Assembly (NCBI GenBank): GCA_016208165.1
Contig: JACQYL010000028.1
Span: forward strand, 1 to 64,000
Direction of reading: 5' to 3'
Source of the DNA: Deltaproteobacteria bacterium
GTDB lineage: Bacteria; Desulfobacterota; Desulfarculia; JACQYL01
DNA: 64,000 nucleotides
The notes under the pieces are model-generated. The model was given only the letters and a program-made list of their open reading frames with translations, searched no databases and was not told the DNA's origin. Made by a program: the position numbers and the translations under genes. Positions 8,169-47,603 of this stretch are shown here, piece by piece. Within the stretch, counting starts at the first letter, position 1, and every line of letters starts with the position of its first letter.

Positions 8169-9040
8169 GCACGGAACTGCTATCTCCAAGAAATCCGGAC
8201 GAACTGTGGCGAGCGATGGAGAGCCATCCGGACGCCGTTCCTTTCGCCGGAGGCACGGACGTCTTCGTCCGGCTGAGGAAGGGATTGATGGCTCCCCGGG
8301 CCCTCCTATGCCTGGATCGCATCGAAGAACTCAAAGGGATTGAAGATCACGGTTCGCACCTCTTTATCGGCGCGGGAACGACCCATTCTACGGCATTGGC
8401 CCATCCATTGGTCATTCAATTCCTGCCTGTGCTGGCCCACGCGCTTCGCGTGCTCGGATCGCCTCCCATACGAAACATGGGAACCATCGGTGGAAACATC
8501 GTCACGGCTTCCCCTGCCGGTGACACCCTTCCCCCCTTGTATGCCCTTGGAGCCGAGGTGGAACTGAGGTCCAGGGAAGGATCGAGGCGCTGTCCGATAC
8601 ACGAATTCATTATTGGACCCGGGAAAACCATTCTTGCGAAGAACGAGATCCTCTCGGGCGTGCGGGTAAGAAAAGCCGATCGCTACAACGTGCATCATTT
8701 CGAAAAAGTCGGGCTGCGAAATGCGCTGGCCATAGCTCTGGTCAGCATGGCCGCTCTTTTGCGTATTTCGGATTCGGGCGAGATTCAGGAGGTCTCCCTG
8801 GCGTGGGGCAGCGTGGGCCCCACGGTTGTCAGGTCCCCGGAAGCCGAGCAAATCCTGTTGGGCAAGACATTGGACCTGCGGACATTGGAAAACGCCGGAG
8901 CCATAGTCCGGAAAGCCGTGGCTCCCATCGACGACGTCCGGGCAGGCTCGGACTACAGGCGTCAGGTGGCCGGCAATCTCCTTCTTCGTCTTACCGAATA
9001 CTCCGGGGAGCAACCCTGTCGTCCCGAGTCTCCTGAATGA
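8165..9040 (+). CDS. Molybdenum hydroxylase, FAD-binding subunit
   Basis: FAD subunit of 291 aa that passes electrons from the iron-sulfur clusters to an acceptor. PFAGGTDVFVRLRKG is the FAD pyrophosphate-binding motif (A-G-G-T-D), and IRNMGTIGGNIVTASPAGD is the second FAD motif. The start at ATG 8165 is set by the ATGA overlap with the 2Fe-2S gene and by homology; longer upstream extension of this frame runs through that gene and is not coding. It ends in an ATGA overlap with the MFS transporter gene. Confidence 0.93.
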   Translation: MSTELLSPRNPDELWRAMESHPDAVPFAGGTDVFVRLRKGLMAPRALLCLDRIEELKGIEDHGSHLFIGAGTTHSTALAHPLVIQFLPVLAHALRVLGSPPIRNMGTIGGNIVTASPAGDTLPPLYALGAEVELRSREGSRRCPIHEFIIGPGKTILAKNEILSGVRVRKADRYNVHHFEKVGLRNALAIALVSMAALLRISDSGEIQEVSLAWGSVGPTVVRSPEAEQILLGKTLDLRTLENAGAIVRKAVAPIDDVRAGSDYRRQVAGNLLLRLTEYSGEQPCRPESPE

Positions 9041-10254
9041 AAGACACCACGAACACGCGCGTCGTTGAAAACATAGCCACGCCTCCCTCCGGGGTTCTTT
9101 GGAACAGGCGTTTCATTTCACTGGCGGCAGCCATCTTTCTGGCCTTCGTAAACGTGGCCGTTTTTTTCCAGTTCTATCAATACCTAAGCTCACTGGCCAT
9201 AGACCCCAAATGGTTCGGCATGATCATCGGGCTGTTCTCAGCCATGTCGCTGATCCTTCGGCCCGTGATCAGTCCTTTGCTTCACGCCCGAAACGCTCTT
9301 CGCTGGATCCTGATCTGCAACGCGGGAGTCATGGTCTGCCTGGCAGCATACGGCCAAGCGGGAAGCCTCTGGAGCATGTTTCTGGTCCGAGCACTGCACG
9401 GCATAACTCACGTCGGCCTGGCAACCGCCCTGATGACCGTCATCATATCCCTTATTCCCCTGGAAAGGAGCGGCCAGTCGTTCGGATTACTTTCCATCGT
9501 CACTTTGCTACCGTACGCGGCGATTCCTCCCCTGCTTCCGGTTTTGACGAGTTGGCTCGGAGGATACCGAAATGTGCTCGTGTTTTTTGCCGTGGTCATG
9601 ATTCTGGTTTTTCCCCTGGTTCTCATGGGCGTGCCCGATCAACGGCAATCCGCCGATCCGGCGGAAATGCAAAGGCTCTCCTTCCGCGAAGTCCTGGAAA
9701 GCCTGAAGGACGCAAAGATACTCGTCTTGTTCTCGGTCATGCTGTTTTTTTTCAGCAGCTATGCTCTGGTATTTTACTTCCTGGCGGAATTCGGTCGGAC
9801 CATCCAAACGGCGGTGGCGGGACTCTTTTTCACCCTGTCGTCGATGAGCGAAATCGGAGTTCGCCTGGTGGCGGGGTCTCTGTTCGACAAAGGAGACAAG
9901 ATCCGCCTGGCCGTTTGGTCCCTTATCGGGATTGCCGTGGGCTACGGGTTGCTTGGGTACGTTCACGGGTCTCTTTCCTTGCTCGCTCTGGGTGTTTTCC
10001 TGGGATTGGGCTGGGGAGTGGCCATGCCCATCCTCAACGCACTGGTATTCGACATCTCCGAGCCCCGGTTGAGGACTTTTAACGTGAATCTCGGAATGCA
10101 GATGTACCAAGGAGGGTTCTTTCTCGGCCCCTTCGTGGGCGGTCTGATCGTGCTTCACTGGGGTTTTCGGGCCCTGTTTAGCGTATGCGCGGGGTTCACC
10201 CTGATTTCAGTGGTTTTGTTGGCGTATCTCAAGTCGTGTCGGGAAAACGAATAG
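9037..10254 (+). CDS. MFS transporter
   Basis: Inner-membrane major facilitator protein of 405 aa with about twelve hydrophobic segments. The N-half shows FISLAAAIFLAFVNVAVFFQF, the central loop is short and charged (residues ~195-215), and a second six-helix half follows. Translational coupling (4-base overlap) to the hydroxylase FAD subunit suggests uptake of the substrate or efflux of the product of that enzyme; this is inference from position. Specificity is unknown. Confidence 0.88.
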   Translation: MKDTTNTRVVENIATPPSGVLWNRRFISLAAAIFLAFVNVAVFFQFYQYLSSLAIDPKWFGMIIGLFSAMSLILRPVISPLLHARNALRWILICNAGVMVCLAAYGQAGSLWSMFLVRALHGITHVGLATALMTVIISLIPLERSGQSFGLLSIVTLLPYAAIPPLLPVLTSWLGGYRNVLVFFAVVMILVFPLVLMGVPDQRQSADPAEMQRLSFREVLESLKDAKILVLFSVMLFFFSSYALVFYFLAEFGRTIQTAVAGLFFTLSSMSEIGVRLVAGSLFDKGDKIRLAVWSLIGIAVGYGLLGYVHGSLSLLALGVFLGLGWGVAMPILNALVFDISEPRLRTFNVNLGMQMYQGGFFLGPFVGGLIVLHWGFRALFSVCAGFTLISVVLLAYLKSCRENE

Positions 10255-10264
10255 GAGAAGACAC

Positions 10265-11311
10265 ATGACGGAATCGGAAAAACAGGCAAACGACATCGAA
10301 CCCGGACAGTCCTGGAAAGTCGACCTGTTCCAGCCGGAAGACGCCCCCGGAGTCACCCGGCTGTTCCGGCTGGTTTACGGTGAAGGCTATCCCATCCGCA
10401 CCTTCATCGATCCTGAAAGGCTGATCGAGGAGAACGCGGCCGGCCGCACCGTTTCCAGCGTCGCCAGAACGCCTAAAGGAGACATCGTGGGGCACAACGC
10501 CATCTTCAACAGCGCTCCCTTCGAAAAAACGTATGAAGGCGGAGCCGGACTGGTGCATCCCGCCTACCGTGGGGGCGCGGGCATCTTCACTCAAATGGGG
10601 TTCCACGGACAGAACGTGGCGGCCGTGAAATTCGGTGTGGAAACGATTTTCGGAGAGCCCGTGTGTAATCACGTCTTCTCCCAGAAGATGTGCGCCGGCC
10701 TCGGCTGGGTGACACGAGCCATGGAAGTCGACCTGATGCCCGCGGCCGCATACGCCAAAGAGGCAAGCGCCTCCGGAAGGGTTACCACCCTATTGGATTT
10801 CAGGACCCTCGTACCCAAGCCTCATACCGTGCATGTGCCCACGTCCTACGAGGAGGAACTGAGGTTCGCTTACGAGGGTTTCGACGACCATCGGAATTTT
10901 GTCTTATCGGGAGAGGCCTTACCCGAGGACCTTGCGACCCGGATCCATGCGCAGATCTTCGACTTCGCCCAGGTCGCCCGCCTGGCCGTGACTCAGGCGG
11001 GGCCGGACTTCGAAGAGGCTCTCGATCGTCAGGAAACGGCTGCAAAAGAAAAGAACGTCATAGTCATTCAGGTGTGGCTGAATTTGGGTTGGCCTTGGGT
11101 GGGTGAAGCGGTGGATCGGCTTCGGGCGCGCGGGTATTTTCTTGGGGGAGTTCTGCCCCGCTGGTTCGACGACGATGGGTTTCTCATGCAAAAGATCTTC
11201 ACCCCGCCCTCCTGGGACGGCATCCGGCTGCACTTCGATCGCGCCAAGAAGCTGCTCGAGCTGGTGCATGGGGACTGGCTGCGAACGCAGGGTGGCGGGG
11301 GACGTCCGTGA
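10265..11311 (+). CDS. GNAT-like acyltransferase family protein
   Basis: 348 aa, last gene of the hydroxylase operon (10-base gap, GGAG about 9 bases before ATG). Residues ~15-150 look like a GNAT N-acetyltransferase fold: LFQPEDAPGVTRLFRLVYG at the start, GLVHPAYRGGAGIFTQM resembling the acetyl-CoA-binding V.P.yRG.Gi motif. The C-terminal half has no family I recognise (IQVWLNLGWPWVGEAVDRL followed by RGYFLGGVLPRWFDDDGF). The substrate is unknown; it may modify the hydroxylase product. Confidence 0.7.
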   Translation: MTESEKQANDIEPGQSWKVDLFQPEDAPGVTRLFRLVYGEGYPIRTFIDPERLIEENAAGRTVSSVARTPKGDIVGHNAIFNSAPFEKTYEGGAGLVHPAYRGGAGIFTQMGFHGQNVAAVKFGVETIFGEPVCNHVFSQKMCAGLGWVTRAMEVDLMPAAAYAKEASASGRVTTLLDFRTLVPKPHTVHVPTSYEEELRFAYEGFDDHRNFVLSGEALPEDLATRIHAQIFDFAQVARLAVTQAGPDFEEALDRQETAAKEKNVIVIQVWLNLGWPWVGEAVDRLRARGYFLGGVLPRWFDDDGFLMQKIFTPPSWDGIRLHFDRAKKLLELVHGDWLRTQGGGGRP

Positions 11312-11380
11312 AGCGTGAACGTGTGTATTGTCTATCCCTCGGACTCAATATTTCACGGGTGTCCGAAAATAGATTCGTAG

Positions 11381-11407
11381 GTTGGGTTGAGCAACGCGAA
11401 ACCCAAC
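11381..11407. repeat. Palindromic repeat, copy 1 (GTTGGGTT...AACCCAAC)
   Basis: Inverted arms GTTGGGTT and AACCCAAC separated by about 11 bases. It is the first of four related elements between 11381 and 11680 that share the core (A)TGTTGGGTTACGC...AACCCAA(C), an intergenic repeat type common in bacterial genomes. Confidence 0.7.
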
Positions 11408-11506
11408 AATTTCGGTCACATAGACCACAACATCACGCTCGGCGCTAGTCGCCTTGCCCTGTCATCGGATGTGCCCGGGCTATATACATATCGCGCTATT
11501 GGAAAT

Positions 11507-11545
11507 GTTGGGTAACGCTCGCTTCGCTCGCTAACCCAATTCAAC
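11507..11545. repeat. Palindromic repeat, copy 2
   Basis: GTTGGGTAACGCTCGC, loop TTC, then GCTCGCTAACCCAA, forming an imperfect long hairpin. The block CGCTCGCTTCGCTCGCTAAC recurs in copy 3. Confidence 0.7.
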
Positions 11546-11582
11546 AACTGGGCCGAGCTGGGGCTCGGCGCTCCCAGGGATG

Positions 11583-11612
11583 TGGTTACGCTCGCTTCGC
11601 TCGCTAACAAAA
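11583..11612. repeat. Palindromic repeat, copy 3 (degenerate)
   Basis: GGTTACGCTCGCTTCGCTCG followed by CTAACAAAACC; the central block is identical to copy 2 but the outer arms have diverged. Confidence 0.6.
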
Positions 11613-11640
11613 CCTACAACCCCTGCGGTTCTTGATTCAT

Positions 11641-11675
11641 GTTGGGTTACGCTCCCGTTGCGCCCTAACCCAATC
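11641..11675. repeat. Palindromic repeat, copy 4
   Basis: TGTTGGGTTACGCTCCCG, then TTGCGCCCTAACCCAATCC. Same family as copies 1-3, with a different central loop. Confidence 0.65.
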
Positions 11676-11720
11676 CACGTTCCCGACGCGTCAACGCACC
11701 CTGTTGCTCGCGATTCATGG

Positions 11721-11915
11721 TTGACCCGGACAACTGGTTGTGCGGGTCCGAAGGAGAGGAGGCGGCTGTAGTCTTTAAGTCCATAGGGCTGTGTGAGATA
11801 CTACACGCTGGGTGGAGCCTCCTGTTGTTTCGCAACACCGGGGTCTCGAACAAATTGAAACAGGTGCGTAGGGAACAAGGCAGGGCAATATCAAGGCTTT
11901 GAGGGTCTTTTTTTA
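11721..11915 (+). ncRNA. Candidate structured RNA of unknown family
   Basis: No protein is recognisable here, but nested complementary segments are: AGGAGGC (11757-11763) with GCCTCCT (11817-11823); inside it TGTAGT (11767-11772) with ACTACA (11800-11805); inside that AGTCC (11778-11782) with GGGCT (11786-11790); then a small GTTG-tttcg-CAAC hairpin (11824-11836). GACCC near 11723 can pair with GGGTC at 11903-11907, directly before seven T residues (11908-11914). This looks like a ~190-nt transcript with its own U-tract end. I could not match it to 6S, SRP, tmRNA or RNase P RNA. Confidence 0.4.
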
Positions 11916-12013
11916 CTGTTCCATATTCAACACAGGTCCTTAGCTCGCGTTTCGTTTACCCAGCGCCACGGCAGAATAGATTTTCAACGAGACGGGACAT
12001 CCCCCGAAACCCC

Positions 12014-13117
12014 TCACTCGAGGATCTTTTCCAGCGCGCGCACAAACGCCTCCATGGCCGGCCGTTCCGAGATCGTCACCCGGATGAAATTGGGAAAGCG
12101 GAACCCGGTCATGGAGCGGACCATGACCCCGAACTTCATCAGGCGCCGGTACGCGAGGGTATCGCTCATGGGAAGCCGGATCATAATATAGTTGCCTTCC
12201 CCGAGGACAAATGGAAGTTGAAGGCGCGTAAGCTCGTCCGTGAGAAGTGCTTTTCCCCGTTTCACCATGTCCCTGGTCCGGAGGATATGTCGCTCGTCGT
12301 CCAGAGCGGCCAGGGCCGCTTCCTGGGCCAGGCTGTTTACGGAATAGACCACGCAGGTTTTTCGAATGACGTCCACCACATCCAGGTTCCCGGCCAGATA
12401 CCCGATGCGCAGTCCGGCCAAAGCGTACATTTTCGAGAAGGTTCTGAATACCACCAGGTTCGGGTATTCCCGGAGAAGCTCGATGCCGTTGGGATAATTC
12501 TCCTGCTCGACGAATTCGAAATACGCCTCGTCCACCACAACGATCCGGTGGCCGGCAATGCGGTCCAGAAAGCGTCTGAGTTTGCCTTCGCTCCAGTAGG
12601 TTCCCGTGGGGTTGTTCGGGTTGCACAGGAACAGAATCTTGGTCCGGTCATCGATGCGGGCCAGCATGCCCTCATCGTCGAAGCCGTGATCCTTCATGGC
12701 TACCAGCTTGGCTTGAAATCCAGAGAATTCGGCCACCCATTCGTAGACGGCAAAGGTTTTCTCCGCCGTAATGATGTTGTCGCCCTCTTTACAGAAGGCT
12801 TTGATCACAAAGGCAATGACCTCGTTGGCGCCGTTTCCCACGAGAATTTGATCGGGATCCAGACCGTGTAGGCCGGCAAGCTTGCGCCTCAGATGAAAAG
12901 AGTCGCCGCTGGGGTACACGGAGGCTCGGGGTGGAGGAAAACGTCGGAGCACCTCCTGGGCGCCCGGAGGCGGACCCAACGGGTTTTCGTTGTTATTCAG
13001 GCGTATGATGGGACCGCAGCCGTAGAGCTTCTGAAGCTCATCGTCCGGCTTGCTGGGGATATATGATTCAAACTTCCGGATGTGCGCCGGAACGAGACTG
13101 TCCAGGTCAACGTTCAT
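12014..13117 (-). CDS. HisC-like class I/II aminotransferase (histidinol-phosphate aminotransferase family)
   Basis: PLP-dependent aminotransferase of 367 aa. Visible motifs are IRLNNNENPLGPPP, FLCNPNNPTGTYW, VVDEAYFEF and the PLP lysine in TFSKMYALAGLRIGYLAG. The fold-type I HisC family acts on histidinol phosphate or aromatic amino acids. There is no his operon around it; instead its start (ATG 13117, or ATG 13120) overlaps the stop of an ATPase-acetyltransferase fusion gene (TGATG), so it may serve a dedicated pathway with that protein. A longer reading frame to 13240 lies inside the upstream gene and is not used. Confidence 0.85.
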   Translation of the reverse strand: MNVDLDSLVPAHIRKFESYIPSKPDDELQKLYGCGPIIRLNNNENPLGPPPGAQEVLRRFPPPRASVYPSGDSFHLRRKLAGLHGLDPDQILVGNGANEVIAFVIKAFCKEGDNIITAEKTFAVYEWVAEFSGFQAKLVAMKDHGFDDEGMLARIDDRTKILFLCNPNNPTGTYWSEGKLRRFLDRIAGHRIVVVDEAYFEFVEQENYPNGIELLREYPNLVVFRTFSKMYALAGLRIGYLAGNLDVVDVIRKTCVVYSVNSLAQEAALAALDDERHILRTRDMVKRGKALLTDELTRLQLPFVLGEGNYIMIRLPMSDTLAYRRLMKFGVMVRSMTGFRFPNFIRVTISERPAMEAFVRALEKILE

Positions 13118-14439
13118 CATGGCAGCCGCTCTACCATCGAGCGCTGAAACACCACCACATCCGCCACACCCGCGTGGGGAAGCACTAGCCGGGGGACAAA
13201 GCCGTTGTCCAGGAGCGAAGGAGTAAATTCCGCTTGCCACGCCTTACCCAGATCCAGCTCGAAAGACAGCGTGCACAGCGACTCCCTTTTCAGAAGCTGC
13301 ACGTGCCGGGATACATTTTCAGCCGCATCCGTTCCGGCCCAAATCGGGCGCAGAGTGACCGTATGTTGAGGGCGATCGAATTCCGCCGCCAACACGGAAT
13401 GCGCCGGATGCCGTTCTCCCTGGTTTTGCACCAACAGGATGTCCCGAGCCAGAAAAAGACGCCGGTATTGCTCCTCCAAAAAACGCTTCAGTCCGGGGTG
13501 CGCCCACACACGGCGCCCCGGATCTTCCTTGAGCTGCCGGTACAGGATTTCCCGCGACAGGGACGTCTTATTCGGAAGGCAGTACGTCATCGAGCCCAGC
13601 GTTTCAAAGTAGCCGGCCGGCAGTTGAGCTGTGAAGTAGCGGGACAAGAGCCCGACTGCCTCGGATCGGGCGATGCTACCGATGCATCCGTCCAGGAGAT
13701 GTTCCGCCATCGGAGCTCCCGGTTCCTGATGGAACACATAGGGACCGAAGCTTTCCACCATATCGGATCCCATATATCGCCAGAAGATGCCGCCCCCAAT
13801 GACGGCGTTCGGCGAGACGGCGATCAGAACGCGGTACTCGCCTCCGGCGACCATATCCGCCATCTTCCCGGGAAACCGAACGTAGGAAGGCGCTTGGGCC
13901 GAATCATAGGTTCGCCGAATCAGGGCGGCGAAGATTTTGATTTCCTCCGGCTCCGGCGCGCGAATGAAGAAAGACCCGAAGGGACTCGGTTCCGACGCCA
14001 GGATTTCTTCACCTTCCGGATACGATTTCTCCTTGATCAGGATCAATCGCACTCCCGCCGGGTACTCATCCTCCATCTGGAGCCGGTCCACGGATCTCCC
14101 CGCGATCAGCAGTCCCAAGTCTTTGAGATCGGAGTCGCTGTCCGGAGAGAATCGCGCCGCCAGGTTAAATGCCTCCATGTTCAGCGGCTGGACCGGGAGC
14201 ACCATATCCACGCGCACGTAGTACCCATAGTCCGAACACTCGATGTGCATCGTGTCTTCCGGCCGGCCGTTGTGACAGAGGTAAGCGAATATCTCTTCCG
14301 CGGCCAGTACCAACTTGAGGGATCCTTCCGAATCCAGCCCGTAGGTCTGCGCAGCGTTTTCGACCATCGACGTGACTGTGGACAAAAAATCAAGTTCGGC
14401 GGGTGCTGTGAGCCGCAATTGCCGCAGTGGTTTTGTCAT
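13117..14439 (-). CDS. RsbW-like ATPase domain fused to a GNAT-like domain
   Basis: 440 aa, two parts. Residues ~10-140 look like an anti-sigma GHKL ATPase: LKLVLAAEEIFAYLCHNGRP matches the N-box region of HATPase_c_2 proteins and KDLGLLIAGRSVDRL resembles the C-terminal G2 region. Residues ~165-440 resemble a GNAT-like protein (GSFFIRAPEPEEIKIFAALI, and VIGGGIFWRYMGSD). GAGGTG lies five bases before ATG 14439. It is translationally coupled to the HisC-like gene. A regulatory-enzyme fusion or an ATP-binding acyltransferase are both possible; the function is unknown. Confidence 0.65.
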   Translation of the reverse strand: MTKPLRQLRLTAPAELDFLSTVTSMVENAAQTYGLDSEGSLKLVLAAEEIFAYLCHNGRPEDTMHIECSDYGYYVRVDMVLPVQPLNMEAFNLAARFSPDSDSDLKDLGLLIAGRSVDRLQMEDEYPAGVRLILIKEKSYPEGEEILASEPSPFGSFFIRAPEPEEIKIFAALIRRTYDSAQAPSYVRFPGKMADMVAGGEYRVLIAVSPNAVIGGGIFWRYMGSDMVESFGPYVFHQEPGAPMAEHLLDGCIGSIARSEAVGLLSRYFTAQLPAGYFETLGSMTYCLPNKTSLSREILYRQLKEDPGRRVWAHPGLKRFLEEQYRRLFLARDILLVQNQGERHPAHSVLAAEFDRPQHTVTLRPIWAGTDAAENVSRHVQLLKRESLCTLSFELDLGKAWQAEFTPSLLDNGFVPRLVLPHAGVADVVVFQRSMVERLP

Positions 14440-35426: not shown

Positions 35427-35597
35427 CTTCAGATACCGACTCCACCGCGAAATCGCAGAATCCTATTAAATTGTATCAGTTATTGTATTTGGCACGTAAC
35501 CTGCTCGTAATACAGACAGAGATCAAGGCCCCTGCAAGAGTGCCAGATTTGGCCCCTTCGATCAGGGACCAACAGCATGAGTTACGGCCGGAGGTCT

Positions 35598-35625
35598 GTA
35601 GGGGCGGTTCGCGAACCGCCCTTAC
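35598..35625. repeat. REP-type palindrome, copy 1, upstream of the RAYT gene
   Basis: Perfect 20-base palindrome GGGCGGTTCGCGAACCGCCC (35602-35621) inside GTAGG...CTTAC. This is the GTAGGGGCGGTTC(G)GAACCGCCCCTAC repeat type associated with REP-associated transposases. It ends 11 bases before the RAYT start. Confidence 0.85.
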
Positions 35626-35636
35626 AACGGAAATCG

Positions 35637-36179
35637 ATGCGACATAACCGCCGATCCATCCGATTGCACGGGTACGATTATTCTCGGGCGGGGGTGTATT
35701 TTGTGACCATTTGCGCCTGGAATCGGGAATGTCTGTTCGGGGACGCCGTGGACGGGAAACCGATTTTGAACGATTTCGGCCTAAAGGTTGCAGAATCGTG
35801 GGAATGGCTGGCGACACGACACGGTTATGTGGACTTGGATGAACGGGTCATCATGCCCAATCATTTGCATGGGGTTATCGTAATTACCGACGTCCTTGAG
35901 GGCGGTTCACGAACCGCCCCTACGAAAAACCGCAAACCCATCGGTCGTTTGGTCGGCGCATTCAAAACGGTATCCACCAAACGCATCAACGATCTGCGCG
36001 GCACCCCAAGCGCCAAAATAGGACAGAGCAATTATTACGAACACATCATCCGCAATGATGACGAACTGAACCGCATCCGGGAATATATCGCCAATAACCC
36101 TGCGCAATGGGATGTAGATCGGGAAAATCCGACCGTTGTCGCAGGGGCTGGTTCTAAACCTGCCCAGGAATGGAGCTGA
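35637..36179 (+). CDS. REP-associated tyrosine transposase (RAYT, IS200-like Y1 family)
   Basis: 180 aa HUH-type single-strand nuclease. NRRSIRLHGYDYSRAGVYFV is the RAYT N-terminus; the HUH motif is PNHLHGVIVI; the catalytic Tyr region is SNYYEHIIRNDDELNRIREY, followed by IANNPAQW. ATG 35637 fits homology; an upstream start at 35577 would read through the REP palindrome. A second REP palindrome (35900-35923) lies inside the coding sequence and is translated as EGGSRTAPT. All catalytic residues appear intact, so the enzyme may be active. Confidence 0.88.
   Translation: MRHNRRSIRLHGYDYSRAGVYFVTICAWNRECLFGDAVDGKPILNDFGLKVAESWEWLATRHGYVDLDERVIMPNHLHGVIVITDVLEGGSRTAPTKNRKPIGRLVGAFKTVSTKRINDLRGTPSAKIGQSNYYEHIIRNDDELNRIREYIANNPAQWDVDRENPTVVAGAGSKPAQEWS
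35900..35923. repeat. REP-type palindrome, copy 2, inside the RAYT coding sequence
   Basis: GGGCGGTTCACGAACCGCCC plus CTAC; one base differs from copy 1. It keeps the reading frame open and adds a short insert between the HUH motif and the Tyr helix. Confidence 0.85.
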
Positions 36180-39587: not shown

Positions 39588-39788
39588 CGCGGAAGCTATG
39601 GGTGGATCCTCCGGTTCTTGATTTCGGATTGCGCACAAGTTAAACCGGAAAACCGCATATCGTTCGTTGGCGGGAGCTGATCCGCAGGGCAAGAGCCACG
39701 AAGCCGTGTCCTTGACTTTTGGGCTGGTTGCCAATTAGCCTATTCGTGTAACAAGCCTAAGATGTTCGGCCAAGGAGGGCCGGTCCGA

Positions 39789-40882
39789 ATGCGGCGAGTG
39801 CTCATCGTGCATTATCACTTCCTGCCCGTCCACAACGTGGCCGTCAAACAGCTTGTGGGCTACATGCGGCGCCTGCCCGCTTTCGGATGGGAGCCGGTTG
39901 TGCTCACTCGCGATTGGCGCAGTATGGAATTCGAGGACCCGTCCTGGGGGCTGAGCTGGGAGCCGGAGATCGAGCGTGGACTCGACGTGTCCATTCACCG
40001 AGTTGCAGATCCGCCCCACCCGCGCTTTCGGCGGGCGAAGCTCGACGATCCGTGGCCGGTCCGGAAAGCGCGCACCTTCGCTCGAACGCTCTTAACGCCG
40101 CCATTCTCAAAGCGAGCCACCATTGGTGGATGGCGCCGGCCGCGGCGTGCATCGCGGTGTCGCCCTACATGGCGAAAACCCTTTCGCAGACCTACGGCAA
40201 GCACGTGGAAGTGGTCCTTGCCGGATACGATCCCGACGAGTTTCCCTCCGAGCCGGTGTCTTCATCCGCACAGCGCACAAATTTCGTCGTGTCCCACGTT
40301 GGTTCTTTATATCCCGGAGACCAACGGCCCGAGATCTTCTTCGACGGTCTGGACCGATTTCTGGAGGCGCATCCCGATGCGGCGGCGTTGCTGGAAGTCC
40401 GTTTCGTTGGTTCGAAATGCGAAGCTCAGTTGGCGCGGATGCTTCAGGACAGACCCTGCGCGCGTGTATGCACCATCCTGCCCAAGGTCGAATCGCCGCG
40501 CGCCGTCGAGATGGTGCGCGAAAGCGATATTTTGCTGGCATTCAACTGCACCAAATTCCGCGACGGACACGGCGCCATGAGCCATCCGACGAAGATTTTC
40601 GAAGCCTTTGGGGCGAGACGACCGATATTGGCCATGCCGCCCGATGGCGATTGGGTGGATGCGCTGCTTGCTCGAACCGGCGGAGGGGTCACGGCGGGCG
40701 ACGCACGCTCGGTCGCATTGGTGCTCGAGGAGTGGTTTTCGGCCTGGCGATCTTCCGGCAAAGCGCCTTATGGCGGAAAACCCGAGGTGCTCGCCGACTT
40801 CACTGTCTATCGGCAGACGGAACGACTGGCGAGGGCTCTGGATTTCGCCTGCAATTCCAGCGACGCGAACAGGGCTGCGTGA
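39789..40882 (+). pseudogene. Glycosyltransferase (GT4-like), frameshifted and internally deleted
   Basis: N-terminal frame from ATG 39789 (AGGAGGG nine bases upstream): RRVLIVHYHFLPVHNVAVKQ, then GWEPVVLTRDW, typical of GT4 acceptor domains, up to about 40085. The donor-binding half continues in a different frame from about 40095: APAAACIAVSPYMAKTLSQT, VEVVLAGYDPDEFPSE, HVGSLYPGDQRPEIF, and HPTKIFEAFGARRPILA, ending 40882. Joined, the product would be roughly 80-90 residues shorter than usual, so a deletion accompanies the shift. Probably non-functional. Confidence 0.75.
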
Positions 40883-40984
40883 AATAGGGTTCCGCTTCAG
40901 GCAAAGTCCGTGAAAACAGGACAAGACATTCCGCCGATGGCGAAGGCTCGGTGTGGATACGATCCAACCTGCAGGAATAGACGT

Positions 40985-41923
40985 ATGAATGGGATACTGT
41001 CCCGGATCAAATACAATCGGGTTACAGCCTCATGCTACGATATCCTTCTCAGGACCAGATACACACAGCCTGATATGTATATTTTCGTGGCGTCTACGGG
41101 ACGATGCGGAACCCTGACCCTGGCTTCAATCTGTTCAGCCTTAAGAAATTCCGTTGCATTACACGAACCTCTGCCCGTCATGTTCGACGACTATGCGCCG
41201 GGCCGGGACAGAAAACAATACTTCGAATCCCTCTTCTACATTAGAAAACGCATCAACATCCGCCGTTCCTCCGCAAACAAAAACTACTACATTGAGACGA
41301 ATCATCAGTTCGCCAAGAATTTTCTTCCACTCGCCGTGGATTATTTCAGGGACAGATTGAGAATCGTGCACCTGACTCGGGACCCTTTAAGCGTAGGGGT
41401 TTCTCTTTATCGGATACACTCGATCCCGGGAAGATCGGCCTTGGCCTCCTCCTACCTTATCAGCCCGTCCGACACATCCAACTTGATTGCCATGGAAGAT
41501 CTATTCTCAGGGAATGGAAAACTCAACCATGATATTTGTAGATGTCTGTGGTATTGGTATGAAGTGGAAACACGCATAACAATGCATAAGAAAACGTACC
41601 CGGACGTATACTGGCGCACGGTAACTACTGAAGATCTGAACAATTATGATTCCATGATTCAGATGTTCGCATCCTTCCGGATCCCCGAGACCGATATCGA
41701 CGTACGGAAGTTGAAATCGGCCGTTGGCAGAAAGAATAATCAGAAGCTGGAGTACAAAACGAACCGGATCGACGTCGATCTCGCGAGCGACCTGCACGAA
41801 CAACTTCTTCTCGAAATGGAAAGAAGATATGGAAAAGGGTTTTGGATGTCGCGGGAACCCGTTGCGGAGTCCGGCCTCAAACATTGTCCCATCCATAAAG
41901 GCTTAGGTATAACAGGCTGTTGA
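40985..41923 (+). CDS. Sulfotransferase-like P-loop protein
   Basis: 312 aa. MYIFVASTGRCGTLTLASIC contains the 5'-PAPS phosphosulfate-binding loop (S/T-G-R-C/S-G-T), and IVHLTRDPLSVGVSLYR is the 3'-phosphate-binding segment of sulfotransferases. ATG 40985 has AGGA eight bases upstream; two upstream in-frame starts (40910 GTG, 40937 ATG) lack sites. Acceptor unknown: a surface sugar or a peptide is plausible from the neighbours. Confidence 0.72.
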   Translation: MNGILSRIKYNRVTASCYDILLRTRYTQPDMYIFVASTGRCGTLTLASICSALRNSVALHEPLPVMFDDYAPGRDRKQYFESLFYIRKRINIRRSSANKNYYIETNHQFAKNFLPLAVDYFRDRLRIVHLTRDPLSVGVSLYRIHSIPGRSALASSYLISPSDTSNLIAMEDLFSGNGKLNHDICRCLWYWYEVETRITMHKKTYPDVYWRTVTTEDLNNYDSMIQMFASFRIPETDIDVRKLKSAVGRKNNQKLEYKTNRIDVDLASDLHEQLLLEMERRYGKGFWMSREPVAESGLKHCPIHKGLGITGC

Positions 41924-42048
41924 AAAACGCGGTCCGCGGTCACGCCAACGGCGTGACGCTTCATCCCTCGTCACTGCGACGTACTCTATGTACGCCTCAT
42001 TCCTAGGGATTTGCGCGCCTTGCATCTCATCGTTCTTCAACGGCCTGT
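41912..42048. repeat. MITE-like element with terminal inverted repeats
   Basis: ACAGGCTGTTGAAAAACG at the left end and the complement ACAGGCCGTTGAAGAACG at the right end (16 of 18 bases match), 137 bases in total, no coding capacity. It includes an internal palindrome GTACTCTATGTAC. Typical of non-autonomous intergenic repeats. It separates the sulfotransferase and PqqD-like genes. Confidence 0.8.
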
Positions 42049-42105
42049 AACAACCCGGCCTTTTCAACGGGCTGGTAAAGCAGACTACGACGGTGTAATG
42101 AAGAT

Positions 42106-42121
42106 GGAAGGAGACAAAGTG
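42106..42121 (+). promoter_or_regulatory. Strong ribosome site deciding the GTG start of the PqqD-like gene
   Basis: GGAAGGAG (42106-42113), five bases, GTG 42119. Upstream ATGs at 42098 and 42104 have no such site. Confidence 0.7.
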
Positions 42122-42580
42122 ACCTCGTCCGATCGTTTCAGCATCAATACGCATAAAATCGTCCATGAAGTGATCGATGATGAAGTAGTTATAGTCAATT
42201 TTGACAATGGGAATTACTACAGTCTGAATGGAGTAGGCGCTGACATCTGGCGGCTTATAGAGAAGAACGCTGCCTTGATGGAGATTGTCGAGGAACTCAA
42301 AGGCAGGTATGAAGGAGACCCGGTCAAAATAGCCGAAGAAGTAACCCAACTGATGGCCGAGCTAAAAAGGGAAGAACTGATCGTACTCAACACGGACGAG
42401 AATCGCGAACGTGATAAAGACAAGAACAGGGGTCCGGCGGTTGGCCGGAAGAATAACAAGCTCCCCTTCAAACGGCCGGTCCTCGAAAAGTACACGGATA
42501 TGAGCGACATGCTGTTACTCGATCCGATCCATGAAGTGGATGAAACGGGTTGGCCCGCCTTAAAAAAGGAGGGCAAGTAG
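42119..42580 (+). CDS. PqqD-like peptide-binding protein (RRE) with leader-like C-terminal tail
   Basis: 153 aa in two parts. Residues ~10-92 are a PqqD/RRE fold (HEVIDDEVVIVNFDNGNYYS, LNGVGADIWRLIEKNAALME, ELKREELIVLN), the domain that binds leader peptides in RiPP pathways. After a charged linker (93-113) comes a tail with FKRPVL (117-122), fitting the (Y/F)xxPxL motif of lasso-peptide leaders, then EKYTDMSDMLLLDPIHEVDE and TGWPALKK. The tail looks like a leader-core arrangement attached to its own recognition domain. Adjacent HprK-like kinase and nearby nucleotidyltransferase and sulfotransferase fit peptide tailoring. No cyclase or leader peptidase is in the window. Confidence 0.75.
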   Translation: MTSSDRFSINTHKIVHEVIDDEVVIVNFDNGNYYSLNGVGADIWRLIEKNAALMEIVEELKGRYEGDPVKIAEEVTQLMAELKREELIVLNTDENRERDKDKNRGPAVGRKNNKLPFKRPVLEKYTDMSDMLLLDPIHEVDETGWPALKKEGK

Positions 42581-42629: not shown

Positions 42630-43676
42630 ATGACTCCGGATTCCAAAGCCATCACTTTCTTCCGCAGCGCCTTTGAAGCCTTTCAGAGAGCGGAACGCGA
42701 CATGAAGATCACCGTCGATCGTTTCTATTCGATTGGAGGATACTCGATCCGATTGCGCTTTGCAGGCTCGGCCTTAGTACCGCTCATGACACCCGCCTTG
42801 GAACATTTGGCTACGACACATCACGGGTCGCCATCACTCACCATTTGCTTATGGGACAGCGAATCCACTGGAACCGTTATGCCGGCGCCTCCGTGGTCCT
42901 TGGAAGATTATTCCGCCCGAGGAGAAGTTCAAGCCCACGATGATGACCGTTATTTCGCCGCGTGCCATAAGGGATCCGGCGCTCTGAGCATTCTGGATAG
43001 AAGCGCGGGATCAGCTCTCTGGTGGATTCGGCGCGCCTCCCTTGTCCCCTTCTACGAGACCGGGGCGCCCCTGTTGACCATTCTCCACTGGTGGATGCTA
43101 GGGCGGGGATTACAGGTTGTGCACGCCGGTGCGGTTGGAACACCGGAGGCCGGAGTGTTGCTGGTGGGCAGAGGAGGTTCCGGCAAATCCACTGCATCTC
43201 TTGCTTGTCTGGGCTCTGAACTGCTGTACGTGGGTGACGACTACTGCCTGGTGCGCACGGCCTCCGATCCGTTTGTGTTTAGTCTCTACAACTCGGGCAA
43301 GCTCGATCCCGATCAGATCAAGAAATTTCCGGACTTGACGTCGGCTGCCAACAATACGGATCGCATCGCAACTGAAAAGGTTCTATTCCTCCTGAGCCGG
43401 CATTATTCTTCCAAAATCATAAGAGGATTTCCAATTCGGGCGATCTTCGTGCTTCGTATAACGGGCCGCCCCGAGACCACATTATCGGCTATTTCGGCGG
43501 GAGCCGCGTTAAGAGCGGTCGCGCCGAACACCCTGTTTCAATTGCCGCATGCAGGACGTTCGACGTTCCACGAGATCGCCGCACTCAGTAAACAAGTTCC
43601 GTGCTATCAACTGAATGTTGGTAGTGAACTGCAGGGCATACCCGAAGTGATCCTTAATTTTCTATCCGACGGTTGA
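42630..43676 (+). CDS. HprK-like P-loop kinase
   Basis: 348 aa. The C-terminal half contains a Walker A GRGGSGKST (residues 180-188) within AGVLLVGRGGSGKSTASLAC and the Walker B-like VGDDYCLV, the pattern of the HPr-kinase-like family found beside PqqD/lasso genes. Relatives phosphorylate serine in lasso peptides, or are of unknown target. The N-terminal ~160 residues have no recognised motif. It starts 49 bases after the PqqD-like gene. Confidence 0.75.
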   Translation: MTPDSKAITFFRSAFEAFQRAERDMKITVDRFYSIGGYSIRLRFAGSALVPLMTPALEHLATTHHGSPSLTICLWDSESTGTVMPAPPWSLEDYSARGEVQAHDDDRYFAACHKGSGALSILDRSAGSALWWIRRASLVPFYETGAPLLTILHWWMLGRGLQVVHAGAVGTPEAGVLLVGRGGSGKSTASLACLGSELLYVGDDYCLVRTASDPFVFSLYNSGKLDPDQIKKFPDLTSAANNTDRIATEKVLFLLSRHYSSKIIRGFPIRAIFVLRITGRPETTLSAISAGAALRAVAPNTLFQLPHAGRSTFHEIAALSKQVPCYQLNVGSELQGIPEVILNFLSDG

Positions 43677-43679
43677 ATC

Positions 43680-44798
43680 ATGAGAGTTCTTTATTGGACC
43701 GGATCCTTTTGGCCGCGGATAGGAGGTGTGGAAGTATTAAGCGCGCGGTTCCTGTCCGCCATGCGAGAGCGCGGATATGAGTTCATTGTGGTGACGGCCG
43801 AAAACCATCCCGGTCCAAGCCATAGGGAATGCGATCACGGTATTCCGATATATAGACTGCCCTTCGGCGCCGGATTGAGCGATCACAATCTTAAGGAAGT
43901 GAAGGAAACAATACGACGAGTAATCGAGATAAAGAGGACCTTCAATCCGGATATCGTCCACTTGAATTCGATTGATGTCAGTGTTTTTTTTCATCTGCTA
44001 ACGGACACAGCCTACCCCGCCCCTTCGTTGTTTACGGTGCACTCCCTGCCGCCGAATCAGAGTGGGACTCATACGTTGATGAAGAAGATGCTATCCTCGG
44101 CCGCATGGGTAACGACAACGTCGGAAGCTATGCTGCGGGCCGTACGTAATCTTGCGAGCGAAGTTACAGCCCGATCGTCCCTGATCTATAACGGTCTCCC
44201 TCAACCGGATGTTCAGCCTTCTCCCTTGCCGTTCGCCGGCCCTCGCCTTTTGTGCATTGGACGAATCGTGAGGGATAAAGGGTTCGACTTGGCCATGGAT
44301 GCGTTTGGGGTTGTAATCGATCGATTTCCCGCGGCTCGACTGATTATCGCAGGAGACGGCCCGGCGATGGCGGACCTCGATCAGCGGGCCGCAAGATATC
44401 GACTATCAGGGGCTGTCGAATTCATCGGTTGGGCACCCCCGGAAGAAGTTCCGGAGTTAATCAACACCGCCACAGCGGTGATCATTCCGTCGAGATGGGA
44501 AGAACCGTTCGGGCTCGTCGCCCTCGAGGCGGCACAGATGGGTCGGCCGGTCGTGGCCGCTCGAGTTGGCGGCCTGGCTGAGATCGTCGAACACCAAAAG
44601 ACCGGATTACTCTTTGATAAGGAAGATAGCGCGGCCCTGGCCAAGCAAATCATCTTCCTGCTCGAACACAAAGAGGCGGCGACACAGATGGGACTGGCGG
44701 CCAGGAAAAGAGCCGAGGACACATTTAGTTTCGAACGCTTTCTGGATGCCTATGAGGATTTGTACCAAAAATTGGTAGGTTCCCCCGGAGCGCTCTGA
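43680..44798 (+). CDS. Glycosyltransferase, family 4 type
   Basis: 372 aa GT-B fold retaining glycosyltransferase. N-terminal SFWPRIGGVEVLSARFLSAM (acceptor side) and C-terminal donor site LLCIGRIVRDKGFDLAMDAF, LIIAGDGPAM, and EEPFGLVALEAAQMGRPVVA with the E(x7)E motif. Complete and of normal length. It starts three bases after the kinase stop, so translation is probably coupled. Confidence 0.9.
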   Translation: MRVLYWTGSFWPRIGGVEVLSARFLSAMRERGYEFIVVTAENHPGPSHRECDHGIPIYRLPFGAGLSDHNLKEVKETIRRVIEIKRTFNPDIVHLNSIDVSVFFHLLTDTAYPAPSLFTVHSLPPNQSGTHTLMKKMLSSAAWVTTTSEAMLRAVRNLASEVTARSSLIYNGLPQPDVQPSPLPFAGPRLLCIGRIVRDKGFDLAMDAFGVVIDRFPAARLIIAGDGPAMADLDQRAARYRLSGAVEFIGWAPPEEVPELINTATAVIIPSRWEEPFGLVALEAAQMGRPVVAARVGGLAEIVEHQKTGLLFDKEDSAALAKQIIFLLEHKEAATQMGLAARKRAEDTFSFERFLDAYEDLYQKLVGSPGAL

Positions 44799-44825
44799 AT
44801 TCGTTAGGCCATGGAGACGGAAGAT

Positions 44826-45548
44826 ATGAATAGGCCGCTCGTGAGTGTAATCATGCCCGTGAGAAACGGCGAACGGTTTCTGCGAGAAGCGATAGAGAGC
44901 ATACTTGGTCAAGATTATCCTTCCCTCGAACTTATCGTTGTTGATGGACAATCAACCGACGGCACGGGATCCGTTGTCCAATCGTTCGGGAAGATCAGGT
45001 ATATCCGTCAAGAAGGAAGGTTAGGTATCGGCCACGCCAAGAATCTTGGGATTGCAGCGGCCAAGGGGGAGTTTCTATCGTTTATTTCCCACGATGACCT
45101 GTGGCCCCCCCATAAACTCAGAACCCAGATCGATTATATGGTCCACCATCCGGACGTCCAATATTCGCTAACGAGAGTGAAGTTCTTTCTGGAACCCGGG
45201 TGCTCCGTACCCCGTGGTTTCAGACCGGAGCTGTTGAAAGACGACTATGTCGGAAAGATGCCCGAGACATTGGTTGCTCGGAAATCACTCTTTGATTCCA
45301 TTGGAGGGTTCAATACTGAATTGACCTATATCGAGGACGTTGAGTGGTTTGCTCGTGTCGCCCGGAGCCAAATACCCATGGGGATCGTACAGGAAGTACT
45401 GCTTCATAAACGCATTCATGACGGTAACGCTTCATACGACCCTTCGAAAATGCGGGACATTAAGCGGGAAATAGTGCAGATAGTGAAAAAATCGATCGAA
45501 CATGGTCGGACCAGGCATACAAGGGATGATGAGAAGCAGCGGAGGTAA
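44826..45548 (+). CDS. Glycosyltransferase, family 2 type
   Basis: 240 aa GT-A fold enzyme. PLVSVIMPVRNGERFLREAI and ELIVVDGQSTDGT bind the nucleotide; SFISHDDLWPPHKLRTQI holds the DxD-like HDD metal site; ETLVARKSLFDSIGGFNTEL, then IEDVEWFARVA is the acceptor/catalytic region. ATG 44826 follows GGAAGAT; ATG 44811 is an alternative. No TM segments. Confidence 0.9.
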   Translation: MNRPLVSVIMPVRNGERFLREAIESILGQDYPSLELIVVDGQSTDGTGSVVQSFGKIRYIRQEGRLGIGHAKNLGIAAAKGEFLSFISHDDLWPPHKLRTQIDYMVHHPDVQYSLTRVKFFLEPGCSVPRGFRPELLKDDYVGKMPETLVARKSLFDSIGGFNTELTYIEDVEWFARVARSQIPMGIVQEVLLHKRIHDGNASYDPSKMRDIKREIVQIVKKSIEHGRTRHTRDDEKQRR

Positions 45549-45556
45549 AGCAAAGC

Positions 45557-46246
45557 ATGGAGGCCGCACCCCTCGTAAGCGTAGTCATTCCCGTTTTCAA
45601 CGGTGAGCCGTATTTGGCTGAGACCATCGAAAGCGTGATCGCACAAACATATAGACCCATAGAGATCATCGTCGTGGATGACGGTTCCACGGATCTTAGC
45701 GCCGTTGCCGCTAAACGTTTTGGCCCGCCGGTACGATATCGATTCCAATCCAACGCAGGTACCGCCGCCGCTCGTAATTTCGGCGTTCGCTCCGCAAGAG
45801 GTTCATTTTTTGCCTTTCTCGATCAGGACGATCTCTGGGCCGAGAACAAATTGACGTTGCAGATTGAGGCGTTTGAAAGGGAACCTACGGCAGACGTCGT
45901 ATTCGGTCATGTTCGGCAATTTCACAGCCCGGGATTGGACCCATCCTTGAAGAAGAGGATACAGTGCCCATCCTCCCTCATGCCCGGATATTCACCTTCC
46001 GCGATGCTGGTTAAGCGGGAGGCTTTTTTTCATGTCGGTGAGTTCGAGACCGCCTGGCGGGTCGGGGAATGGGCAAATTGGTACGTACGCGCCGTCGAGC
46101 GAAAACTCCAAATGATCATGCTTCCGGAGTTGATCGCGTTGAGACGCCTCCACGATTCCAACAAGGGGATTCTCCAACATATGTCCATAAACGAGTACCC
46201 CCGCATTCTTAAGGCTTCGCTTGACCGTCGCCGCACACTAGAATGA
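45557..46246 (+). CDS. Glycosyltransferase, family 2 type
   Basis: 229 aa, paralogue of the preceding gene: PLVSVVIPVFNGEPYLAETI, EIIVVDDGSTDLSAV, FLDQDDLWAENKLTLQI with the DQDD metal site. Its catalytic C-terminal part is shorter (VGEFETAWRVGEWANWYVRA), so activity is likely but the acceptor differs. GGAGGT lies 11 bases before ATG. Confidence 0.9.
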   Translation: MEAAPLVSVVIPVFNGEPYLAETIESVIAQTYRPIEIIVVDDGSTDLSAVAAKRFGPPVRYRFQSNAGTAAARNFGVRSARGSFFAFLDQDDLWAENKLTLQIEAFEREPTADVVFGHVRQFHSPGLDPSLKKRIQCPSSLMPGYSPSAMLVKREAFFHVGEFETAWRVGEWANWYVRAVERKLQMIMLPELIALRRLHDSNKGILQHMSINEYPRILKASLDRRRTLE

Positions 46247-46418
46247 ATTAAGATATTGCCAACGGGGACATAAGCAGTCCTGTGACCATTCATGGGGCAG
46301 TCTTCCAAACCGTTTCCTTTTCTCCGACATTGCGGCGAAGGAGAGTGTGCCTGGAACGACAAAATACCATGATTTTAAAATGTTACCAAAGACGCGCACA
46401 TGGAATGCACAACGACGC

Positions 46419-47603
46419 ATGGATACCTCTAAAGTGGTTCTTTCTCGGGTCCGAATCGATCGCATACGGGCCGGATGTCGGCCCAGTGATCAACAGGAGC
46501 TGCTGTTGCGGGCCGCCCTGTTTTCCGGGGATGCGGCCCTCGATGCATGGCGGAAATGGCGTGGTCTGGTAGGCCGGGACCTTCGTCATCTGGACATGGG
46601 ATCCTTCGGACTTATCCCCATGCTGTATCGCAACCTCAGCCTTCTGGGCGTCCAGGACCCACTGATGGACCGCTTCAAAGGGATCTTCCGACGAACCTGG
46701 TATCAGAATCAGACATTGCTTCATGGCTGCGCCCGGGCACTCGAAGCACTACAAGCCGCCGGCCTGGGCGTGCTGATGATGGACGGCGTGCCGGTCGTGA
46801 TGAACGACTATCAAGACCTCGGCCTTCGGCCTATGGATGGGTTCGACATTCTGGTGCGCATCGGACAGGCTGAAAAAGCCATCCACGTCCTCAGTTCCCT
46901 GGATTGGAAACCTTCCGGCATCCGGATCGAGAAACTGAGCCCGGGTTTTCTTAACGCCGGGCATACTCTGCGTTTCAATAAAGGTTCTTCCCTGACTTGC
47001 GATCTGCACTGGAGATTCATGCCCGACCGTTTCGGTCCGATTGATGATGCCGCTTTGTGGGAGGCCGCAGTCCCCTTATACGTCCGGGGGGTCCGGATCC
47101 ATGCCTTGGGCAAGGCCGACCAACTGCTTCGCGCCTGCGCTCTCACCATAGGACGTATCGGTTCACCACACATACAATGGATTGCCGATGCGGTTGTGGT
47201 CCTGAGGCGAGCGATCGTGCGAATCGACTGGAACCGCCTGATATCCCTGGCGCAACGTTACCATGTGACCCTCAAGGCCTACTCGGCGCTTTTCTACCTG
47301 CGGCAGTATATGGACGTTGCCATTCCGGAAGACGTTTTACGGCAGTTTGAAAACATCCCGATATCCGATCCGGAACGCCGAATGTTTGACGCCACCCTCC
47401 ACAAAAACAAGCTTATCGGTTCTCTCGAGCATTCCTGGTTGAATTATCGGGCCTATGCTGCCGAGTATGAGAAATCGTTCTCTCCTTTCAGACTGCCGGG
47501 CTTCCTTGAATATCTCCGTTTGAGGCGCGGGCATGACAGCCGATGGGATACCCTGCGCTGGGCGGTATCCAGCTACTTGCTTCCGGGCTCAAAACCGGTA
47601 TAA
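46419..47603 (+). CDS. Nucleotidyltransferase-like protein (NTP_transf_5 / PF14907 type)
   Basis: 394 aa. LGVLMMDGVPVVMNDYQDLG, then LRPMDGFDILVRI corresponds to the family's G(v)LLKGaal...Rpm.DiDLLV active-site block. Here the order reads MDGFD rather than the expected M(x)D(x)D, and KG is replaced by DG, so catalysis may be altered or lost. CDLHWRFMP and the long helical C-terminus fit the family. Members occur in lasso-peptide and capsule loci. The start is uncertain (46347 GTG, 46380 ATG and 46419 ATG are possible; none has a clear ribosome site). Confidence 0.7.
   Translation: MDTSKVVLSRVRIDRIRAGCRPSDQQELLLRAALFSGDAALDAWRKWRGLVGRDLRHLDMGSFGLIPMLYRNLSLLGVQDPLMDRFKGIFRRTWYQNQTLLHGCARALEALQAAGLGVLMMDGVPVVMNDYQDLGLRPMDGFDILVRIGQAEKAIHVLSSLDWKPSGIRIEKLSPGFLNAGHTLRFNKGSSLTCDLHWRFMPDRFGPIDDAALWEAAVPLYVRGVRIHALGKADQLLRACALTIGRIGSPHIQWIADAVVVLRRAIVRIDWNRLISLAQRYHVTLKAYSALFYLRQYMDVAIPEDVLRQFENIPISDPERRMFDATLHKNKLIGSLEHSWLNYRAYAAEYEKSFSPFRLPGFLEYLRLRRGHDSRWDTLRWAVSSYLLPGSKPV

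Follow-up and report, generated by a model that had tools for sequence, protein, structure and literature searches.

This report concerns a protein encoded in a 64,000-nucleotide stretch of DNA from a Deltaproteobacteria bacterium (contig JACQYL010000028.1, positions 1 to 64,000), hereafter the window. In this protein a PqqD-type RRE, the recognition element of pathways for ribosomally synthesized and post-translationally modified peptides (RiPPs), is continued in the same chain by a tail that resembles a precursor peptide. The gene and its parts are as follows.

42119 to 42580, forward strand: RRE-tail fusion protein of 153 amino acids with a GTG start (open reading frame, Pfam and homologue evidence).
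42182 to 42382, forward strand: PqqD/RRE domain, residues 22 to 88, B1-type fold (PF05402; the model resembles TbiB1, 5v1v_A).
42395 to 42463, forward strand: variable, charged linker, residues 93 to 115 (0.44 bits per residue).
42467 to 42484, forward strand: leader-like motif F117-K-R-P120-V-L122 (strand at 122 to 125 in the AlphaFold2 model).
42497 to 42556, forward strand: conserved segment D127 to P146 (DMSDMLLLDPIHEVDETGWP), a putative acceptor or docking segment with residues invariant in 80 sequences.

The Pfam model PF05402 (PqqD) matches residues 22 to 88 with 61.7 bits against a cut-off (gathering score) of 23.4, which confirms the PqqD-like N-terminal part described in an earlier, sequence-only reading of this DNA. 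That reading also described the tail, and the FKRPVL motif and the residues after it are as it said. However, it placed GWP at the C-terminus, and this motif lies 7 residues short of it. After the linker the chain reads FKRPVLEKYTDMSDMLLLDPIHEVDETGWP, and 7 further variable residues complete it. The layout is F117KRPVL122 ... DPIHEVDETGWP146, and the family form runs on into DM..LLLLDPIHEVDExGWP. The GTG start codon is preceded by GGAG, a Shine-Dalgarno-like sequence and good ribosome-binding site; in-frame ATG codons at 42098 and 42104 are alternative starts. A repeat of about 141 bp lies at window positions 41912 to 42052, directly upstream of the fusion gene, and makes a longer upstream open reading frame (ORF) starting at 42011 unlikely. 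It has at least 40 copies in the host genome, at 84 to 100% identity. Its ends form imperfect inverted repeats by eye, undetected by the repeat tool, and it may be a miniature inverted-repeat transposable element.

The fusion is real and widespread. An alignment of five tail sequences was scanned against 84,980 bacterial and archaeal genomes and yielded 379 pattern stretches, 232 of which were confirmed as relatives. This is far above chance. The best 80 of the 232 were kept as loci, and all counts of conservation, fusion, phyla and alignment positions given here are based on them. A PqqD domain lies upstream of the tail in the same ORF at 79 of the 80 loci; at the remaining one (L079) the ORF is cut short but retains part of the domain. 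Judged by their record titles, the loci span 17 phylum-level groups, with Chloroflexota, the former Deltaproteobacteria and Cyanobacteriota foremost. The scan patterns pre-select part of LL[LI]DP[IV]H[ED]V and KYTDM, which biases part of the tail conservation. F117, P120, GWP and the fusion lie outside these patterns; nevertheless, the confirming alignment favours all four. Two further searches, of 395 genomes of the host's phylum, are free of tail-pattern bias. One, with the full-length protein, gave nine tailed matches in eight genomes, and the other, with the neighbouring kinase described below, gave strong matches in exactly those eight genomes. Both agree with the tail scan.

The tail is the best conserved part of the protein. 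Mean information is 3.25 bits per residue in the tail, 1.85 in the domain and 0.44 in the linker, as expected if the tail is constrained and the linker is not. The linker varies from 16 to 27 amino acids, yet the distance from F to GWP is 30 or 31 amino acids in every homologue. Position 117 is F or Y and position 120 is P in 80 of 80. The invariant residues are P120, D127, M128, L134, D135, P136, H138, G144, W145 and P146. Homologues without the tail, which would have spoken against a functional fusion, do not occur in the family.

A second case that would have spoken against it is a separate precursor gene nearby, and none was found by profile, ORF clustering or whole-genome search. A six-frame search of the loci with the tail profile (36,816 ORFs) matched the RRE proteins alone, and no detached precursor appeared. 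Clustering of 1,511 short intergenic ORFs at the loci gave none common to distant loci; 83 of the 1,511 have YxxPxL-like motifs, which were taken as background. Across 25 whole genomes the profile found no free-standing tail, every match with E < 0.01 being in an ORF of at least 144 amino acids at an RRE locus. These results bear on the idea that the RRE serves a separate precursor elsewhere in the genome, the tail being an autoinhibitory pseudo-leader that the true client displaces. The clients of B1-type RREs are normally separate precursors, and this family has kept the pocket residues. However, there is no conserved short ORF near the genes and no detached tail in the 25 genomes, although this last search would miss a precursor whose sequence is unrelated. 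Moreover, autoinhibition needs no near-invariant 12-residue segment past the cleft. We consider this explanation improbable.

Neither Pfam nor NCBIfam has a model that covers the tail. A tail-only search of PDB sequences matched only a tektin, which was judged a chance match. The fusion is not described in the literature searched, which mostly left aside subscription papers and preprints. The enzymes and the RRE themselves are of known kinds, and the nearest relative is the system of linear polyphosphorylated peptides, or LPP (Popov et al., 2026; PMC13381572).

How might the tail sit on its own domain? In the crystal structure of PbaB1 with PbaA, leader residue K-18 is held through its backbone by acidic RRE positions, W-15 and L-10 occupy two pockets with F83 between them, and E-9 to L-7 lengthen a beta sheet along Y38-N40 (PMC13381572). 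The tail can be placed in the same register, with PbaA K-18, W-15, P-12, L-10 and E-9..L-7 corresponding to K114, F117, P120, L122 and E123..Y125 of the window protein. Position 114 is K or R in 47 of the 80 homologues. Profile alignment pairs the PbaB1 second-pocket residues Y39, L41, F83, L87 and L92 with Y34, L36, F/L78, L82 and L87, all of which are conserved. An AlphaFold2 model built with the 80 homologues has the secondary-structure elements E E E H H H, with a predicted local confidence (pLDDT) of 88 for residues 111 to 120 and 85 for 121 to 130, a strand at 122 to 125 and low values at 131 to 153. It superimposes on TbiB1 (5v1v_A) with a TM-score of 0.88 by target at 1.1 A, and the Foldseek matches at E <= 0.002 are lasso B1-leader complexes without exception. 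The leader-like segment is thus predicted to dock in cis in the cleft of its own RRE. The sequence-only reading had expected FKRPVL to dock on the RRE; the register fits the crystal structures and the segment is ordered, while the docking itself stays a prediction of the model.

This resemblance raises another possibility, namely a B1 protein of the lasso-peptide kind whose C-terminal extension is incidental, left in a degraded or cyclase-separated lasso cluster. The best curated family is indeed lasso_PqqD_Bac, which 79 of the 80 members match at E <= 0.001, although the protein from the window, at 55.8 bits, falls short of the cut-off of 80. What does not fit is that the supposedly incidental extension is the best conserved part. 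In addition, the Asn_synthase-type cyclase (PF00733) had no match within 15 kb of tailed loci in eight whole genomes, and matches to the B2 protease Transglut_core3 (PF13471) in these genomes were elsewhere or absent, never beside tailed loci. A lasso cluster was rejected on these absences, and the explanation is very unlikely indeed. As a separate observation, one genome has a lasso-like arrangement in addition to its tailed RRE: at L124 10089-11862 (G000:C80), a second PqqD protein, without a tail, precedes a B2-like Transglut_core3 protein and a protein resembling a kinase.

The genes around the fusion gene are as follows.

40910 to 41923, forward strand: sulfotransferase-like protein, upstream, a possible cluster member (PF00685 at 18.9 bits, under the cut-off of 22).
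42630 to 43676, forward strand: HprK/PEPCK-fold kinase of 348 amino acids, P-loop at 180 to 187 and DD at 203 to 204 (weak HprK_rel_A/B and Hpr_kinase_C matches; model; 44 of 50 loci).
43680 to 44798, forward strand: GT4 glycosyltransferase (PF00534).
44811 to 45548, forward strand: GT2 glycosyltransferase, of a type that occurs as a kinase fusion in 12 relatives (PF00535; fusions).
45557 to 46246, forward strand: GT2 glycosyltransferase, second copy (PF00535).
46347 to 47603, forward strand: NTP_transf_5 nucleotidyltransferase-like enzyme (PF14907, 101.7 bits; 43 of 50 loci).

From its model, the protein encoded next door is an HprK/PEPCK-fold kinase with P-loop kinase residues. The AlphaFold2 model has a pLDDT of 94.5 and its top Foldseek matches are PEPCK structures (E about 1e-11); H165, G180, G183 and D203 are invariant, and K186, S187 and D204 nearly so. 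Neighbours were counted at the 50 loci with full flanks. The kinase is present, adjacent or near, at 44 of these, NTP_transf_5 at 43, GT2 at 46 and an ATP-binding cassette (ABC) exporter at 28, and kinase, NTP_transf_5 and exporter occur all together at 22. The window itself holds the RRE, the HprK-like kinase and the nucleotidyltransferase, and no MsbA-like exporter was recognised beside these genes. The kinase and GT2 are fused at 12 loci. RRE and kinase distances are correlated (Mantel r 0.69, with 0 of 2000 permutations as high), a correlation to which shared organismal descent contributes.

Other arrangements were also seen. At five Chloroflexota loci (L083, at 8898-13552, and L046, L055, L062 and L106) a tailed RRE and ABC exporter are followed by an ABC permease, a binding protein and an AMP-binding/PP-binding/acyltransferase protein, with no kinase near. 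Upstream in the window, a GT4-like gene at 39762-40882 appears to be divided between two reading frames (ORFs 39762-40580 and 39887-40882), which suggests a frameshift or an assembly error. Farther away, at 35577-36179, an ORF resembles a transposase of the tyrosine type associated with repetitive extragenic palindromic (REP) sequences, and short repeated stretches encoding GGSRTAPT/AVREPPLQ were noted near it by eye.

Several known systems pair similar proteins. LPP loci share with the present family a discrete B1-type RRE, an HprK-like kinase, a nucleoside triphosphate (NTP) transferase and, at many of the present loci, an MsbA-like transporter, the lack of a cyclase, a polysaccharide-locus setting and a leader motif, [Y/W]xxPx[V/L] in LPP, that lies in the RRE cleft there (PMC13381572) and is predicted to do so here. 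However, LPP systems have a separate precursor that carries YxxPxVLxHQxIxFETxxS and has a variable C-terminus, a Ser acceptor at +18 and a signal-peptidase-like (SpI-like) leader peptidase, and are described as Bacillota only (PMC13381572). In the present family a single chain holds both the precursor-like tail and the RRE. The segment hardly varies, Asp takes position +18, a peptidase was not recognised and the members come from 17 phylum-level groups. The phospho(glyco)-lasso systems of paeninodin and pseudomycoidin also have an HprK-like kinase, an NTP transferase, sometimes a sulfotransferase, a discrete RRE and a WxxPxL leader (PMC8498205), whereas their Asn_synthase-type cyclase, B2 protease, C-terminal Ser acceptor and separate precursor were not found in the present family. 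HPr-rel-A (TIGR04352/TIGR04353) likewise pairs an HprK-related kinase with a PqqD-family protein, but the window proteins score 27 and 15.3 bits, under the cut-offs of 200 (TIGR04352) and 35 (TIGR04353). The SynChlorMet cassette (ScmC/ScmD, TIGR04249/TIGR04248) also has HprK-like and PqqD-like proteins together, but the scores are 34.2 against a cut-off of 100 bits for ScmD and 12.5 against 125 for ScmC, and radical-SAM genes are not regular in the present loci. In borosins a substrate peptide is covalently joined to a pathway protein, the core being fused to the modifying methyltransferase. Here, in contrast, the peptide is fused to the recognition domain and not to a modifying enzyme.

What, then, does the tail do? 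The reading favoured here, held tentatively and at a little under an even chance, is that the tail is a substrate or acceptor presented in cis. The protein would combine an RRE adaptor with the client peptide that it serves. In the tail, the leader-like stretch (K114..F117xxP120xL122-E-K-Y125) would turn back on the domain and lie in the RRE cleft as an additional beta strand, which would keep the invariant DPIHEVDExGWP beside the domain and offer it to the kinase. NTP_transf_5 and the GT2/GT4 enzymes would receive the segment next, and in many hosts an MsbA-like ABC transporter would handle export. In other words, the system might be a linear cousin, without cyclase or peptidase, of the paeninodin, pseudomycoidin and LPP systems, its segment resembling a carrier-protein motif that serves as a constant acceptor for a host-variable phosphoglycan. 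The basis is analogy. The pseudomycoidin peptide receives its phosphate from a kinase of this type, and a nucleotidyltransferase puts hexoses on that phosphate (PMC8498205). For LPP, the target of polyphosphorylation by the kinase is the Ser at motif position +18 (PMC13381572; position counted in the present analysis). The kinase acts on the peptide in both, so the tail would by analogy be the substrate here.

A number of observations weigh against this reading. Tail position +18, in register with the LPP phospho-Ser, is D135 and has no hydroxyl. No Ser, Thr or Tyr is invariant in the tail; at ten loci with a kinase such residues are missing altogether from DPIH onwards, and at one locus (L112) from everything after FxxPxL. 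Ser is the residue phosphorylated by those kinases of this kind that have been characterised, and a hyperconserved core is atypical for a RiPP. The kinase is absent from six of the 50 fully flanked loci. No leader peptidase gene was recognised, and none is among the families of 78 unlabelled neighbours, although no search aimed at SpI-like peptidases was made. The loci without hydroxyl residues led to the rejection of Ser/Thr phosphorylation as the general way in which the core is modified. The sequence-only reading had proposed that recognition domain and substrate are fused, the last 30 or so residues being the modified part. The first half stands insofar as an RRE and a lasso/LPP-type leader motif share one polypeptide. 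The second half is plausible but unproven: the phosphate or sulfate that it proposed needs a hydroxyl acceptor, and none is invariant. We infer the acceptor role of the segment, the modified residue (D135 or H138 being candidates) and the product. The options are a modified non-hydroxyl residue (D135, H138), modification at T/S126 in most members, or a tail whose role is docking.

The last of these options deserves attention. In this scenario the tail is unmodified and has a docking or regulatory function, its strand completing or plugging the RRE and DPIHEVDExGWP recruiting the kinase, the NTP transferase or the exporter to another substrate such as a glycan or lipid-linked sugar. It is a credible alternative, if on the doubtful side. 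Invariant Asp, His, Trp and Pro without a conserved hydroxyl acceptor would suit it, and the loci are rich in polysaccharide genes. Against it, characterised systems with the same enzyme set use the peptide as substrate, and in nearly all members the tail is C-terminal with a short variable end, as in a precursor. One member departs from this. At L178 (6170-8119) a single 649-residue ORF comprises an RRE, the tail, a second RRE-like part and an HprK/PEPCK-type kinase, so that the tail is internal, a placement that favours docking over a substrate role.

Tail variants bear on the same choice. In 15 genomes of the cyanobacterial phylum, of 1.6 to 2.1 Mb, the tail is EYNDAQELLLADPIHEVKEETGWTPEKDSIGY, without FxxP, and in three Pseudomonadota genomes it is HDDLADLIxVDPIHEVEEPLGWPxVKQ, again without FxxP. 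The motif has therefore been lost in two lineages that retain the DPIHEV..GW core. Conversely, in L174, L175, L195 and L042 the leader part stays and the end is LALDPPxP in place of DPIHEVDExGWP, and a lineage that retains FxxP and the kinase has DPPxPD instead of the core. Both kinds of variant sit poorly with an acceptor presented by its leader. Leader and core are thus separable, and common to all variants are D127 and the D135-P136 pair. In the 15-genome cyanobacterial-phylum group the kinase frequently has an RRE of its own at the C-terminus together with a leader-like strand, the DPIHEV core being absent, so the strand can be purely structural, as docking would have it. Two side observations belong here. 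The loci L181-L186, from small cyanobacterial-phylum genomes, have such a kinase with C-terminal RRE and leader-like strand and are rich in GT2 and other sugar genes, and one genome (G448) has three tailed RREs with differing ends.

The favoured reading, an acceptor presented in cis, can be taken one step further, to a specific proposal that is unlikely as it stands. DPIHEVDExGWP would be the modification motif of an undescribed class of peptide carriers, RREs that present their own tail. An Asp or His would be primed by the HprK/PEPCK-fold kinase together with NTP_transf_5, and glycosyltransferases that differ between hosts would then assemble a phosphoglycan to be exported. That the core hardly changes between distant phyla, while the polysaccharide loci around it do, points to an acceptor or signal that stays constant and a glycan that varies.

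RRE proteins serve to find peptide pathways through a search for a nearby precursor gene. A family with a precursor-like peptide inside the RRE would escape this logic. The fusion also offers one clean, self-contained substrate for probing HprK-like kinases and NTP_transf_5, at a time when the LPP end product and its role are not yet established. The tail may be the built-in acceptor or docking signal of an undescribed phospho-sugar pathway. If the carrier-protein reading is true, this would be peptide-anchored glycan synthesis, apart from both lipid-linked routes and cleaved RiPPs.
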